51,495 bases of DNA from Acidobacteriaceae bacterium (GTDB lineage: Bacteria; Acidobacteriota; Terriglobia; Terriglobales; Acidobacteriaceae). The DNA lies in contig PMWW01000192.1 of the NCBI GenBank assembly GCA_003165795.1, forward strand, positions 1 to 51,495, in the 5' to 3' direction. Positions 25,951-29,640 of this stretch are shown one piece after another (position 1 is the first letter of the stretch; each line of letters opens with the position of its first letter). The notes under the pieces are model-generated. The model searched no databases. It was not told the DNA's origin and saw nothing but the letters and a program-made list of their open reading frames with translations. The translations under genes were made by a program, and so were the position numbers.

Positions 25951-26634
25951 TCAACTCCGACGAGATACTTCAGAAAAGAAGATACCGAACTCCCGCACCA
26001 CCGTCTCCGGCAACTCCTCGCGGTTCGACTTCTGCAGCAGACTGTGTCCCGCGCCTGCGATCGGAACCAGCTTTGCCGGTGCAGGAATCAGCTTGGTCGC
26101 GCCTTCCAGTTCTTCGATCGTGCCAAACGCATCACGCGTTCCGCTGACCAAGAGAACCGGAGTTCGCAAGCTGGGGAGATGCGCGGTCCGCAACTGTGCC
26201 GGACGTCCCGGAGGATGCAATGGATACGACAGCAGGAGCATCCCGTCCACCAGCGTCGGCTCGGCAGCAACCAACATGCTCGCCTGCCGTCCACCATACG
26301 ACACGCCGCCCAGAAAAGCGCGTCCAGTAAACTGCTGCTTCATCAGATCGACCGCCCGCCGCAGTCCAGCCTGATCATGCTTGGCATCCGACGGCGACGG
26401 CGGCCCATGCGGACGCCGCTGGCGAAACGGCAAATCGCAGCGCAGCACGCTGACGCCCTCCTCCGCAAACTTGTCAGCCAACGCGACCAGCAACGGCGCA
26501 TCGCAATTGCCGCCTGCGCCGTGGGTCAGCACAAGGAAACCGGATCCGGAATCTTCCGCGCGATGAAGAAATCCCCGGACCGGAGCATTGTCCGGCGTGC
26601 TGTCGGCAAACGGTTGTGCTTCGCGATCACTCAC
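25951..26634 (-). CDS. Alpha/beta hydrolase of the KANL3/Tex30 type
   Basis: A 227-residue alpha/beta hydrolase. FLVLTHGAGGNCDAPLLVAL gives the oxyanion region, FLGGVSYGGRQASMLVA the nucleophile elbow (Ser in GVSYGG), VLLVSGTRDAFGTIEEL the Asp, and VPIAGAGHSLLQKSN the His, so the catalytic triad is complete. The set matches the KANL3/Tex30 dienelactone-hydrolase-like branch, substrate unknown. The start is GTG at 26634, which overlaps the stop of the small lipoprotein gene as GTGA, so the two are translationally coupled. Confidence 0.85.
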   Translation of the reverse strand: MSDREAQPFADSTPDNAPVRGFLHRAEDSGSGFLVLTHGAGGNCDAPLLVALADKFAEEGVSVLRCDLPFRQRRPHGPPSPSDAKHDQAGLRRAVDLMKQQFTGRAFLGGVSYGGRQASMLVAAEPTLVDGMLLLSYPLHPPGRPAQLRTAHLPSLRTPVLLVSGTRDAFGTIEELEGATKLIPAPAKLVPIAGAGHSLLQKSNREELPETVVREFGIFFSEVSRRS

Positions 26635-26813
26635 AACAAATCCTCAATGTTCTCGTCCAGAACCAAAATGCCTGCCGTCCTGAGCGGAGGCAGCGTTTCG
26701 CCGCCGGAGTCGAAGGACTGCTTTGGCGGCGGCATCTGGTTGGTTTTATCGGCGGCATAGCTCGCAGGCAACAAACACCCGGCAAGCAGCAGCGCCACTA
26801 AGAACTTTTTCAT
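26631..26813 (-). CDS. Small predicted lipoprotein
   Basis: 60 residues starting MKKFLVALLLAGCLLPASYA. The lipobox LLAGC puts the lipidated Cys at residue 13, although a signal-peptidase-I cut after ASYA is also possible. The short mature region is Pro-rich (TNQMPPPKQSFDSGGETLPP) and ends ILVLDENIEDLL. A strong GAGAGGAGAG ribosome site precedes the ATG. It overlaps the hydrolase gene by 4 nt and lies opposite the FadR-type operator, which could also control it. Function unknown. Confidence 0.6.
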   Translation of the reverse strand: MKKFLVALLLAGCLLPASYAADKTNQMPPPKQSFDSGGETLPPLRTAGILVLDENIEDLL

Positions 26814-26988: not shown

Positions 26989-27033
26989 TTGCGGAAGGCC
27001 GTACGAGGCGATAGAGTGAATGAGTACTCATTC
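26989..27033 (+). promoter_or_regulatory. FadR-type operator with overlapping promoter
   Basis: GAATGAGTACTCATTC (27018-27033) is a perfect 16-bp palindrome; with one flanking base it reads TGAATGAGTACTCATTCG, matching the operator form known for TetR-type FadR (YsiA) of Bacillus, TGAATGA-N-TA-N-TCATTCA, at all but the last base. A candidate promoter (TTGCGG at 26989-26994, 17-bp spacer, TAGAGT at 27012-27017) runs directly into it. It lies 85 bp before the TetR gene. Confidence 0.7.
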
Positions 27034-27117
27034 GGGGCAGCGCTGGTAATCCCTCAGCCGCTGCAAGACTTGGCTGTGGGTCGAGTGCAATTCTCTTAGC
27101 TTACGACGATCAGGCCA

Positions 27118-27771
27118 TTGGCAAAACGTGACCCTCAATCTGCTTTCACTCCCCCAGAGGGAGCCGTCCCCGGCGCTAACCGCGGCGCTGACAAGCACCA
27201 GCGCATCCTGGATGCGGCGGTCGCCGTCTTCGCCGAGAAGGGCTTCTTCAGCGCGCGTATCGCCGACATTGCCGAACGCGCCGACGTTGCCGACGGCACC
27301 GTCTATCTCTACTTCAAGAGTAAGGAAGATATCCTGATGACCGCCATCAACACGGCGTTCGATGCCTTCATGAGCCTGGCCCGAACCGAGTTGAAGAAGC
27401 TGTCAAGTCCGGTGGACCGGCTGCGGCGGCTGGCATTCCTTCATCTGGACGCGCTCGGCTCCAATCGCAATTTGGCGGTGGTCTTCCAAATGGAGTTGCG
27501 ACAGAGTACGCGGTTCCTCTCCGAGTTCTCGCATCATCACATGATCGAGTACCTCGGCCTGGTGCGCGACGCGATCACCGAGGGTCAGGCCAGCGGGACT
27601 TTTCGCCGCGAGATGTCGGACAAGTATGCGGCCAACTGTTTCTTCGGCGCGCTCGATGAGATGGTCACCTCGTGGGTGTTGAGCGAGCACGATTACCACC
27701 TCGCGCACGTTGCCGACGGGGTAGTCGACATTTTCTTGAACGGGATGCGCAGCGACCGGCAAACGGGATAG
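27118..27771 (+). CDS. fadR: TetR-family transcriptional regulator, FadR-like
   Basis: A 217-residue repressor. The N-terminal HTH (KHQRILDAAVAVFAEKGFFS, RIADIAERADVADGTVYLYF, KSKEDILMTAI) is of the TetR type closest in form to Bacillus FadR/YsiA, and the ligand domain follows. FadR-type proteins repress fatty acid degradation genes and release DNA on binding long-chain acyl-CoA. The next gene is an acyl-CoA synthetase and a FadR-type palindrome lies upstream, so autoregulation and control of fadD are likely. The start is TTG at 27118; its ribosome site is weak. Confidence 0.85.
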   Translation: MAKRDPQSAFTPPEGAVPGANRGADKHQRILDAAVAVFAEKGFFSARIADIAERADVADGTVYLYFKSKEDILMTAINTAFDAFMSLARTELKKLSSPVDRLRRLAFLHLDALGSNRNLAVVFQMELRQSTRFLSEFSHHHMIEYLGLVRDAITEGQASGTFRREMSDKYAANCFFGALDEMVTSWVLSEHDYHLAHVADGVVDIFLNGMRSDRQTG

Positions 27772-27840
27772 AGCGAAGCTTTAAGTCAACGGCTGCGCCG
27801 TTACAGATAGACTGGGGATTGACCGACAGGGGACAAGCAG

Positions 27841-29640
27841 TTGGGCGCAAATAACCTTCGAACTCTCAATGACGTTTTCTTCACGCTGATGGGGCGCAAC
27901 AGCGATCGCATCATGCTTACCCGCGAAGGCGAGGCTTGGCAGCCCATCTCCGCCCTCCAACTGCGGAGCTGGGTCTATGCCACGGCGCGTCAATTACAGG
28001 CTTGGGGTGTAAGAAAAGGCGATCGCGTCATCATCCTTAGCGAGAACCGGCCGGAGTGGGCCGTTGCCGACTTTGCCACCCTGTTGCTGGGAGCCGTGGA
28101 TGTCCCCATCTACGCCACCCAGACCAGCGACCAGAGCTTATACGTCTTGCAGAATTGCGGAGCCCGTGTCGCCTTCGTTTCCACTCGCAAGCAGTATGAG
28201 AAGCTCGCCGCCATCCGCCAGCAGACCGGCCTCGAATACGTCGTCATCATGGATGACGCCCCGGGGTTGACCGAGGCAGTAGCGATGCAGTCCTTCCTGC
28301 GCGACGCCTCGTTCGAGAACGATCCGGAACTGGAGGCCCTAGGCCGGCTAGTCGAGCCCGACGATCTTGCCACGCTTATCTACACCTCGGGCACCACCGG
28401 CACGCCCAAAGGTGTGATGCTCACCCACGGCAACATGGCGTCGAACCTGAATGTCTCGCTCGACATGTACGACATCGACAAGGACGATCTCTGCGTTTCC
28501 TTCCTGCCGCTGTCGCACGTGACCGCCCGTCATCTCGACTATGCCTTGTTCAATATCGGCGCGCCGCTGGCCTACTGCCCCAACATGGACGATCTGCCGC
28601 GCGCCATGGCCGAGGTGCATCCCACCATCATCGTGGCCGTGCCCCGGGTCTACGAGAAGATTTATAACAAGGTGCAGTACGGGTCGCACGGCTTGAAGCA
28701 CGCTCTCATCAAGTGGGCCCTTTCGGTGGGCGTTGCGAATCGGGAAGCCATTCTTCGCGGCGAAACGCCAAAATCCATCGCGTGGAAGCTGGCCAACGCG
28801 CTGGTGTTCTCCAAAGTGCGCGCAGGTCTAGGAGGCCGTGCCCGCATCTTCGTCTCGGGAGGCGCGCCTCTGGGCCGCGAGATCGCCACGTGGTACGCCG
28901 ACATCGGAATCCGCATTCACGAAGGCTACGGGCTCACCGAGACTTCTCCGGTGATCGCAGTCAATAATCCCATCAACCATCGTCTGGGCACTGTAGGCAA
29001 GCCGCTGCCGAATGTTGAAGTGCGCATCGCCGAAGACGGCGAGCTGTTGGTACGCGGCCCTTCCGTCTTCAAGGGATACTGGAAGATGCCCCAGGAATCG
29101 GCTGCGGTCTTTGAAGATGGCTGGTTTAAGACGGGCGACATCGCGAACCTCGATGCAGAAGGCTATCTCTCCATCACCGACCGCAAGAAAGACCTGATCA
29201 AAACTTCAGGCGGCAAATTCATCGCTCCCCAGCCCATCGAGAGTTCGCTCAAAGTAAACCAATTCATCGGCGAGGCTGCCTTGCTCGGCGACATGCGACG
29301 CTTCCCTGCCGTGCTCATCATCCCCAGCTTTCCGGACTTGGAGGAATGGGCGCGCCATCACAATGTGAAGTTTTCGACCCGTAAGGAGTTGATCAAGGCG
29401 CACCAGGTGCAATCGCTTTATCAGGGCATCGTCGATGAGATGAATCAAAACCTGGCGCAATATGAGAAGCTGAAGCGCGTGCTGGTTGTGCCTGACGAAC
29501 TTAGCATCGCCGACGGCACCCTCACTCCCAGCATGAAGCTGCGCCGTCGCAACTTGACCGACCGCTATAAGAAAGAGATCGACGCTCTCTACGCCGACGC
29601 CGAATCACACTCGCGCGATACCATTCCTGCGAAGAGGTGA
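27841..29640 (+). CDS. fadD: Long-chain acyl-CoA synthetase (AMP-forming)
   Basis: A 599-residue enzyme that activates fatty acids to acyl-CoA via acyl-AMP. The core motif YTSGTTGTPKGVMLTHGN starts near residue 181; YGLTETSPVIAVNNP, WFKTGDIANLDAEGYLSI and DRKKDLIKTSGGKFIAPQPI complete the adenylate-forming signature. It resembles the FadD15-like branch by length and C-terminus. The start is TTG at 27841 with AGGGGA seven bases upstream. It follows the TetR gene by 69 bp on the same strand; its acyl-CoA product is the likely inducer of that regulator. Confidence 0.93.
   Translation: MGANNLRTLNDVFFTLMGRNSDRIMLTREGEAWQPISALQLRSWVYATARQLQAWGVRKGDRVIILSENRPEWAVADFATLLLGAVDVPIYATQTSDQSLYVLQNCGARVAFVSTRKQYEKLAAIRQQTGLEYVVIMDDAPGLTEAVAMQSFLRDASFENDPELEALGRLVEPDDLATLIYTSGTTGTPKGVMLTHGNMASNLNVSLDMYDIDKDDLCVSFLPLSHVTARHLDYALFNIGAPLAYCPNMDDLPRAMAEVHPTIIVAVPRVYEKIYNKVQYGSHGLKHALIKWALSVGVANREAILRGETPKSIAWKLANALVFSKVRAGLGGRARIFVSGGAPLGREIATWYADIGIRIHEGYGLTETSPVIAVNNPINHRLGTVGKPLPNVEVRIAEDGELLVRGPSVFKGYWKMPQESAAVFEDGWFKTGDIANLDAEGYLSITDRKKDLIKTSGGKFIAPQPIESSLKVNQFIGEAALLGDMRRFPAVLIIPSFPDLEEWARHHNVKFSTRKELIKAHQVQSLYQGIVDEMNQNLAQYEKLKRVLVVPDELSIADGTLTPSMKLRRRNLTDRYKKEIDALYADAESHSRDTIPAKR

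Follow-up and report, generated by a model that had tools for sequence, protein, structure and literature searches.

A predicted FadR circuit for fatty acid degradation in an Acidobacteriaceae genome, and its two operator forms among related Acidobacteriota

The regulon of Bacillus FadR comprises, according to PMC4525379, fadNAE and lcfA-fadR-fadB-etfB-etfA, and its repression is relieved by C14–C20 acyl-CoA. The window analyzed here is the whole of a 51,495-nucleotide stretch of an Acidobacteriaceae bacterium (assembly GCA_003165795.1, contig PMWW01000192.1, positions 1–51,495 of the forward strand) and contains a predicted operator followed by genes for a TetR-family regulator (fadR) and an acyl-CoA synthetase (acsL). 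We propose, with a probability of about 0.9, that these belong to a FadR circuit in which a FadR-type repressor acts at sites before fadR-acsL and fadNAE and is released by long-chain acyl-CoA. The closest counterpart is Bacillus subtilis FadR (YsiA), with which the window has in common a YsiA-like TetR repressor, the fadN-fadA-fadE target and an acyl-CoA ligase gene beside fadR; an etfBA target, as in Bacillus, is found in Acidobacteriota relatives. The operator form TGAATGA-N4-TCATTCA, which we take to be the consensus of Bacillus FadR, is likewise common to both, being exact at fadN and present with one mismatch at fadR-acsL in the window genome. The two systems differ in gene order (fadR-acsL in the window, lcfA-fadR-fadB-etfB-etfA in Bacillus), in a regulator score below the equivalog cut-off, in the presence of only two sites at up to one mismatch in the window genome, and in a shorter operator form that occurs in some acidobacterial relatives. 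FadR of Bacillus halodurans (Protein Data Bank (PDB) entries 5gp9 and 5gpc), whose host is also a Firmicute, is among the best PDB sequence matches, over query residues 24–211.

Other fatty acid regulators are more distant. FadR of Sulfolobus acidocaldarius, also a TetR-family fatty acid repressor, is described in PMC6449355 as binding one operator as one dimer and another as two, with a decisive G and C at a distance of 11 bp, the same as in TGA-N8-TCA; it is archaeal and has a different regulon, and the account of its homologues there states that BLAST at first revealed no bacterial functional homologues. The FadR of Thermus thermophilus is a TetR-family regulator of fatty acid degradation with the operator TTRNACYNRGTNYAA (PMC5597230), which the window site does not match by eye. 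Escherichia coli FadR belongs to the GntR family, and PsrA and FadP represent other TetR groups of Proteobacteria (PMC5343134); these resemble the window regulator in regulating fatty acid degradation. Literature searches with the operator letters returned nothing usable, and no paper on FadR in Acidobacteria was found among the matches listed from an open-access library, which omits most subscription journals and is therefore weak evidence of absence.

The first-pass annotation had reported a perfect 16-bp palindrome just upstream of a TetR-family gene, directly after a plausible promoter and with an acyl-CoA synthetase gene next in line, and these observations hold. The palindrome, GAATGAGTACTCATTC, occupies 27018–27033, and, after an interval of 84 bases, the TetR open reading frame (ORF) begins with TTG. 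The predicted operator, TGAATGAGTACTCATTCG (27017–27034, + strand), extends the palindrome by one base on each side, ends 83 bases upstream of that start and agrees with the FadR consensus at 13 of the 14 fixed bases, the last base being G instead of A. A putative −35 element, TTGCGG (26989–26994, + strand), is separated by 17 bp from a putative −10 element, TAGAGT (27012–27017, + strand); as read from the sequence, the final base of this σ70-like promoter is the first base of the 18-mer, and a promoter-like stretch directly 5′ of the operator is also present in same-genus relatives. The fadR gene (27118–27771, + strand) encodes 217 residues, and acsL (27841–29640, on the same strand) encodes an AMP-binding synthetase of 599 residues. 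In all seven same-genus genomes with available DNA upstream of fadR (L014–L020, the window genome included), the fadR operator has identical arms and the same final G around a varying N4 core (GTAC, GCAT, ACAT, ATGC, GCAT, ACAT and GCAT); this comparison is mostly among close species, whose wider surroundings are alike too.

The TetR ORF matches PF00440 (TetR helix-turn-helix, 57.9 bits) and PF08359 (TetR_C_4, YsiA-like, 92.5 bits), both above cut-off, and its best NCBIfam model is NF053878, FadR(Bacillus), at 181.2 bits. Because this lies under the equivalog cut-off of 200 bits, we name the protein FadR-type and do not file it under that equivalog; the cut-off is reached in only 4 of 199 Acidobacteriota genomes and by the B. 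subtilis control. The four best PDB matches, all TetR regulators, are 5gpa, 1vi0, 3whb and 5gp9 (E values from 3e-36 to 6e-36, the next match being at 1e-14), and residues 24–212 of the window regulator align with the Bacillus FadR chains. Among these entries, 1vi0 and 5gpa are presumably also Bacillus FadR structures (5gpa from B. halodurans), and 3whb was deposited as a fatty acid metabolism regulator. PMC6449355 identifies 3whb as B. subtilis FadR and 5gp9 as B. halodurans FadR. By sequence, then, the protein encoded at 27118–27771 is of the FadR type, like Bacillus FadR. The acsL product matches PF00501 at 262.6 bits, and its best NCBIfam model is FadD11 (365.7 bits, under that model's cut-off of 950), so that it is a probable long-chain fatty acyl-CoA ligase, with the chain length deduced from similarity; an AcsL match lies behind fadR in 54 of 80 fadR loci. 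This leaves some room for a FadR site whose regulator responds to a different ligand, such as a short-chain or branched acyl-CoA or another lipid, and the ligand pockets of TetR proteins generally evolve faster than their DNA-binding domains. The score of the YsiA-like C-terminal domain, the alignment with the Bacillus chains over residues 24–212 and the targets fadNAE and etfBA, which are the same as in Bacillus, argue against another ligand, and we consider it unlikely.

The palindrome itself is near chance level. About 0.8 perfect 16-bp palindromes of any sequence are expected per 51 kb (by arithmetic with equal bases), and GAATGAN4TCATTC at up to two mismatches has two matches in the window, as compared with 2.14 expected from shuffles. 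In the 4.95-Mb genome, the operator pattern has 13 sites at up to two mismatches (about 16 expected by arithmetic; 1 for the reversed control pattern), two at up to one mismatch (about 0.8 expected) and one exact site (about 0.02 expected). The significance of the palindrome therefore rests on the genes behind the sites and on conservation. The only exact site (G000:C97:18137–18154) lies 280 bp upstream of fadN, where it occupies the −35/−10 spacer of the putative promoter, and the sole one-mismatch site is the window's own operator before fadR-acsL; at this threshold there is no third site that might serve etfBA. Behind the exact site are genes, all on one strand, for an 801-residue 3-hydroxyacyl-CoA dehydrogenase, a thiolase and an acyl-CoA dehydrogenase, giving the order fadN-fadA-fadE as in Bacillus; the FadE product scores 853 bits with the NCBIfam Bacillus FadE model (cut-off 600). 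The thiolase ORF (L044, 5609–6875) appears to be shortened by unread assembly bases, seen as X in the translation. The two-mismatch loci that were read lie in or beside unrelated ORFs, with the exception of AGAATGAGTGATTATTCA (L012, 1501–1518; G000:C182:80583–80600), which overlaps the start of an ORF named by eye as similar to β-ketoacyl-ACP synthase III (FabH) and is probably due to chance because sites of this grade are at chance level.

A genome search for TGAATGA-N4-TCATTCA before β-oxidation genes had been set beforehand as a test, and its outcome agrees with the first-pass identification of the palindrome as a Bacillus-type FadR operator: the sole exact copy in the window genome precedes fadNAE, and in a set of 61 genomes (the window genome and 60 relatives) all 18 exact copies precede β-oxidation, electron transfer flavoprotein (ETF) or fadR-acsL genes. 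These 18, spread over 15 genomes, are among 41 sites found at up to one mismatch, as compared with five for the reversed control (one each in G013 and G017 and three in G022). Their targets are fadN (16 sites), fadR-acsL (one, G051) and etfB-etfA (one, G058); G058 (L071) has a single array made up, in this order, of fadR, acsL, an exact operator and fadNAE. TTGAC immediately 5′ of the 18-mer and a TAnnnT stretch immediately 3′ of it are found in 15 of the 16 canonical fadN promoters. Of the 23 one-mismatch sites, seven are in fadR promoters within the genus of the window; the other 16, elsewhere, are best read as chance. One site in a same-genus genome, TGAATGAGCGTTCAGTCA (L090; G003:C251:2911–2928), has none of the seven fad and etf query genes in its fetched flanks.

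The exact site and the regulator occur together. When FadR presence was defined by a protein match of at least 180 bits (17 of the 61 genomes), both were found in 14 genomes, FadR only in three, the site only in one and neither in 43 (Fisher p = 4e-10). Among 199 Acidobacteriota genomes, a FadR match (E ≤ 1e-25) is present in 52, one apiece, across many families, and an exact site in 41, with one exact control match overall (G236); both occur in 38 genomes, FadR only in 14, the site only in three and neither in 144 (Fisher p = 1.5e-25). These p values overstate independence, because the genomes are related. Targets were surveyed at the window genome's own site and at one site in each of 29 others of these 41 genomes (L184–L212), a set that does not include G061, in which an exact site occurs without a FadR match. 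At the 29 loci the targets are fadN (six), etfBA (five), fadR (five), fadA (one), acyl-CoA dehydrogenase (two), a hydratase/dehydrogenase fusion (one) and a 4Fe-4S protein (three), the last of which we infer to be FadF. Four exact sites lie near genes for secreted hydrolase-like proteins (L185 in G222, L186 in G180, L188 in G109 and L189 in G121). Three of these were scanned; one matches DUF676, a putative serine esterase family (27.9 bits, cut-off 20.3), and the other two have no Pfam match. At L188 a different ORF is nearer to the site. The FadR regulon could thus extend in some lineages to the breakdown of esters outside the cell.

These results also bear on the reading of the palindrome as a chance or private operator, under which the regulator would read another motif and the fadN sites would serve another factor. 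Such palindromes are expected at nearly one per window, and in two of the 29 genomes (L184 in G186 and L207 in G176), both of which have no FadR match, the exact motif lies beside a different TetR gene, whose product may recognize this motif too. Against this stand the constant arms and varying core in the seven same-genus genomes, a site at up to one mismatch before fadR in 57 of 88 loci, the correlation of exact sites with FadR in 199 genomes and the position of all 18 exact sites in the 61-genome set. A chance palindrome was rejected on the targets of the exact sites, the low reversed-control counts and the co-occurrence with FadR, and we regard this alternative as highly improbable.

The architecture of the operator was derived from 88 distinct regions upstream of fadR, which remained from 96 rows after eight had been dropped (seven duplicates arising from one genome listed under two names, and L016, which comes from a closely related species and shares sequence); L141 and L158 are included with short upstream DNA. 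The 18-mer is present at up to one mismatch in 57 of the regions and exactly in 37. Nine of the other 31 contain an exact TGAAT-Nx-ATTCA at x = 4, one of them also at x = 14, and none contains it at any other spacing from 0 to 16; at up to one mismatch, TGAAT-N4-ATTCA is present in 13 of the 31. When the spacer of TGAATGA..TCATTCA was varied as a control, the counts had a peak at 4 (57 regions) and side peaks at 0 (21) and 8 (nine) with none between, the pattern expected of a 4-bp repeat of half-sites. In 62 of 85 distinct exact sites the N4 core has AT at an end, which completes TGAAT-N4-ATTCA on that side; shuffles of the core bases gave 37.5 ± 3.0 and reached 62 in none of 5000 trials, with the proviso that the sites are related by descent. 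Within the 18-mer, G2 and C13 are 11 bp apart, as are G6 and C17. The core AT bias and the frequent replacement of an absent 18-mer by the short form suggest TGA-N8-TCA as the sequence read by one dimer and an 18-mer built of two overlapping sites of this kind with a 4-bp offset, a stoichiometry deduced from the pattern of bases.

Several observations weigh against the proposed circuit or limit its generality. The final base of the window operator is off consensus, and the favored AT is absent from the GTAC core. The window regulator scores below the cut-off of the FadR equivalog. Neither operator form is present at up to one mismatch in 18 of the 88 fadR upstream regions, indicating that autoregulation varies among relatives, and five genomes of the same family (G009, G026, G029, G031 and G033) have an exact site at fadN and no site at up to one mismatch at fadR, so that autoregulation is not universal. 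No fadN, fadA, fadE, fadR, acsL, etfB or etfA gene was found in the fetched flanks of the 16 one-mismatch sites away from fadR promoters. Three of the 199 genomes have an exact site without a FadR match, and 14 of the 52 FadR-bearing genomes, nine from an Edaphobacter-like genus (designated g46) and five others, have no exact 18-mer.

The FadRs of g46 are 78–98% identical to that of Edaphobacter lichenicola in all nine genomes. Their fadN promoters consist of TTGAC, the short form TGAAT-N4-ATTCA and a −10 element in that order. In seven short-form fadN promoters (six from g46 and one from G027), the half-site adjoining the −35 element is altered, and the short form keeps the register of the inner part of the 18-mer in six and is displaced by a single base in the remaining one. 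A search of 19 genomes of the family with the composite pattern at up to one mismatch gave 12 places, eight before fadN and four before etfBA, with no control matches; these are in eight of nine FadR-bearing genomes (all g46) and in none of 10 genomes without FadR (one also g46). Upstream of fadR itself, the exact short form is found in only four of the nine g46 genomes. In the window genome, TGAAT-N4-ATTCA has three matches, one of which is the fadN site; the other two have no adjoining fatty acid genes, judging by ORFs. The recognition helix is alike between the short-form and 18-mer groups. Eight Edaphobacter- and Granulicella-like rows differ from 23 chosen 18-mer rows in having Pro rather than Lys or Arg at residue 47 and Ala or Val rather than Asp or Glu at residue 50; among the nine g46 proteins, position 47 is always Pro and position 50 is Ala in eight and Glu in one. 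Yet Arg47 and Asp50 occur in G027, whose fadN promoter carries the short form, and Bacillus FadRs have Gln and Lys at these positions. This weakens the case for the two residues as the cause of the short form, and they may only mark the clade.

From these data we lean slightly toward the view that bacterial FadR uses operators of two designs that can replace one another: one of 18 bp, on which two dimers cooperate and which is composed of two TGA-N8-TCA sequences with a 4-bp offset, and one of 14 bp, TGAAT-N4-ATTCA, for a single dimer. In the Edaphobacter-like genus, the fadN and etfBA promoters would have come to carry the single site through decay of the outer half-site that adjoins the −35 element, with the recognition helix unchanged. 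The fadR operator of the window, in which the final G is conserved, would be an asymmetric double site, and FadR would repress its own gene less strongly than fadN.

The first-pass annotation had left open whether the regulator-operator pair was widely conserved or transferred. Wide conservation is upheld by the presence of FadR in 52 and of the exact site in 41 of the 199 genomes and by an acidobacterial clade in a maximum likelihood tree, which was built from the best 80 loci matching an acidobacterial FadR profile, the window row and two Bacillus FadRs, and rooted at the midpoint. One supported set (99/94) contains 60 Acidobacteriota FadRs, the window row and one Rhodanobacteraceae metagenome-assembled genome; 19 other rows, mostly δ-proteobacterial, and the two Bacillus FadRs, which are on a long branch, lie outside it. 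The 18-mer is present upstream of fadR at up to one mismatch in 15 of these 19 loci. A recent horizontal transfer of the pair from Firmicutes would account for the Bacillus-type regulator, operator form and fadNAE gene order, but is opposed by the single supported set with Bacillus outside it and by the occurrence of FadR singly across many families. Within the limits of this sampling and rooting the tree led us to reject it, and we consider such a transfer very unlikely; old and mainly vertical inheritance of FadR in Acidobacteriota fits the sequences best. A contig labeled Rhodanobacteraceae (L142) carries an Edaphobacter-like fadR-acsL pair and is either misbinned or the result of a transfer.

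The first-pass suggestion that a divergent lipoprotein-hydrolase pair is a third target is unsupported. The divergent genes start some 200 bp away from the operator, and what was called a lipoprotein is a 60-residue ORF with a signal-peptide-like start (26631–26813, − strand) at the place where relatives have a peroxiredoxin-like gene, of which it is all that remains in the window. In these relatives, the gene has an in-frame TGA where the active cysteine would be expected, within FAFTGG-TGA-[TS]xxM, in all 10 loci read (L015, L016, L018, L019, L020, L104, L105, L106, L108 and L109, with L015 and L105 from one genome), and its product is therefore probably a selenoprotein. A tRNA-Sec model scores above cut-off in nine of nine genomes of the genus and also in five of 14 control genomes.

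By analogy with known FadRs, from which DNA binding, repression and acyl-CoA-dependent release are predicted, the circuit would operate as follows. Without long-chain acyl-CoA, FadR would sit on 27017–27034 at the −10 element and start of its own promoter, repressing itself and acsL, and at G000:C97:18137–18154 it would block the fadN-fadA-fadE promoter from within the −35/−10 spacer; two dimers could occupy an 18-bp operator, one on each TGA-N8-TCA. On the arrival of fatty acids, the synthetase would make acyl-CoA, which would open the repressor, and both operons would then be expressed and the acyl-CoA signal burnt. The promoter elements and the number of dimers are predictions, and the case is built on similarity, site positions, conservation, gene association and co-occurrence. 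The likelihood is high that the circuit is real; it should work like that of Bacillus FadR and is probably old in the phylum. The circuit itself is of a known FadR kind, and the most novel part is the operator variant in relatives. The two forms provide a natural series for the shift of a TetR repressor between one-dimer and two-dimer binding. One palindrome thus leads to a phylum-wide regulon in which Acidobacteriota would have regulator, operator and target operons in common with Bacillus, so that the control of fatty acid degradation may be read from acidobacterial genomes.

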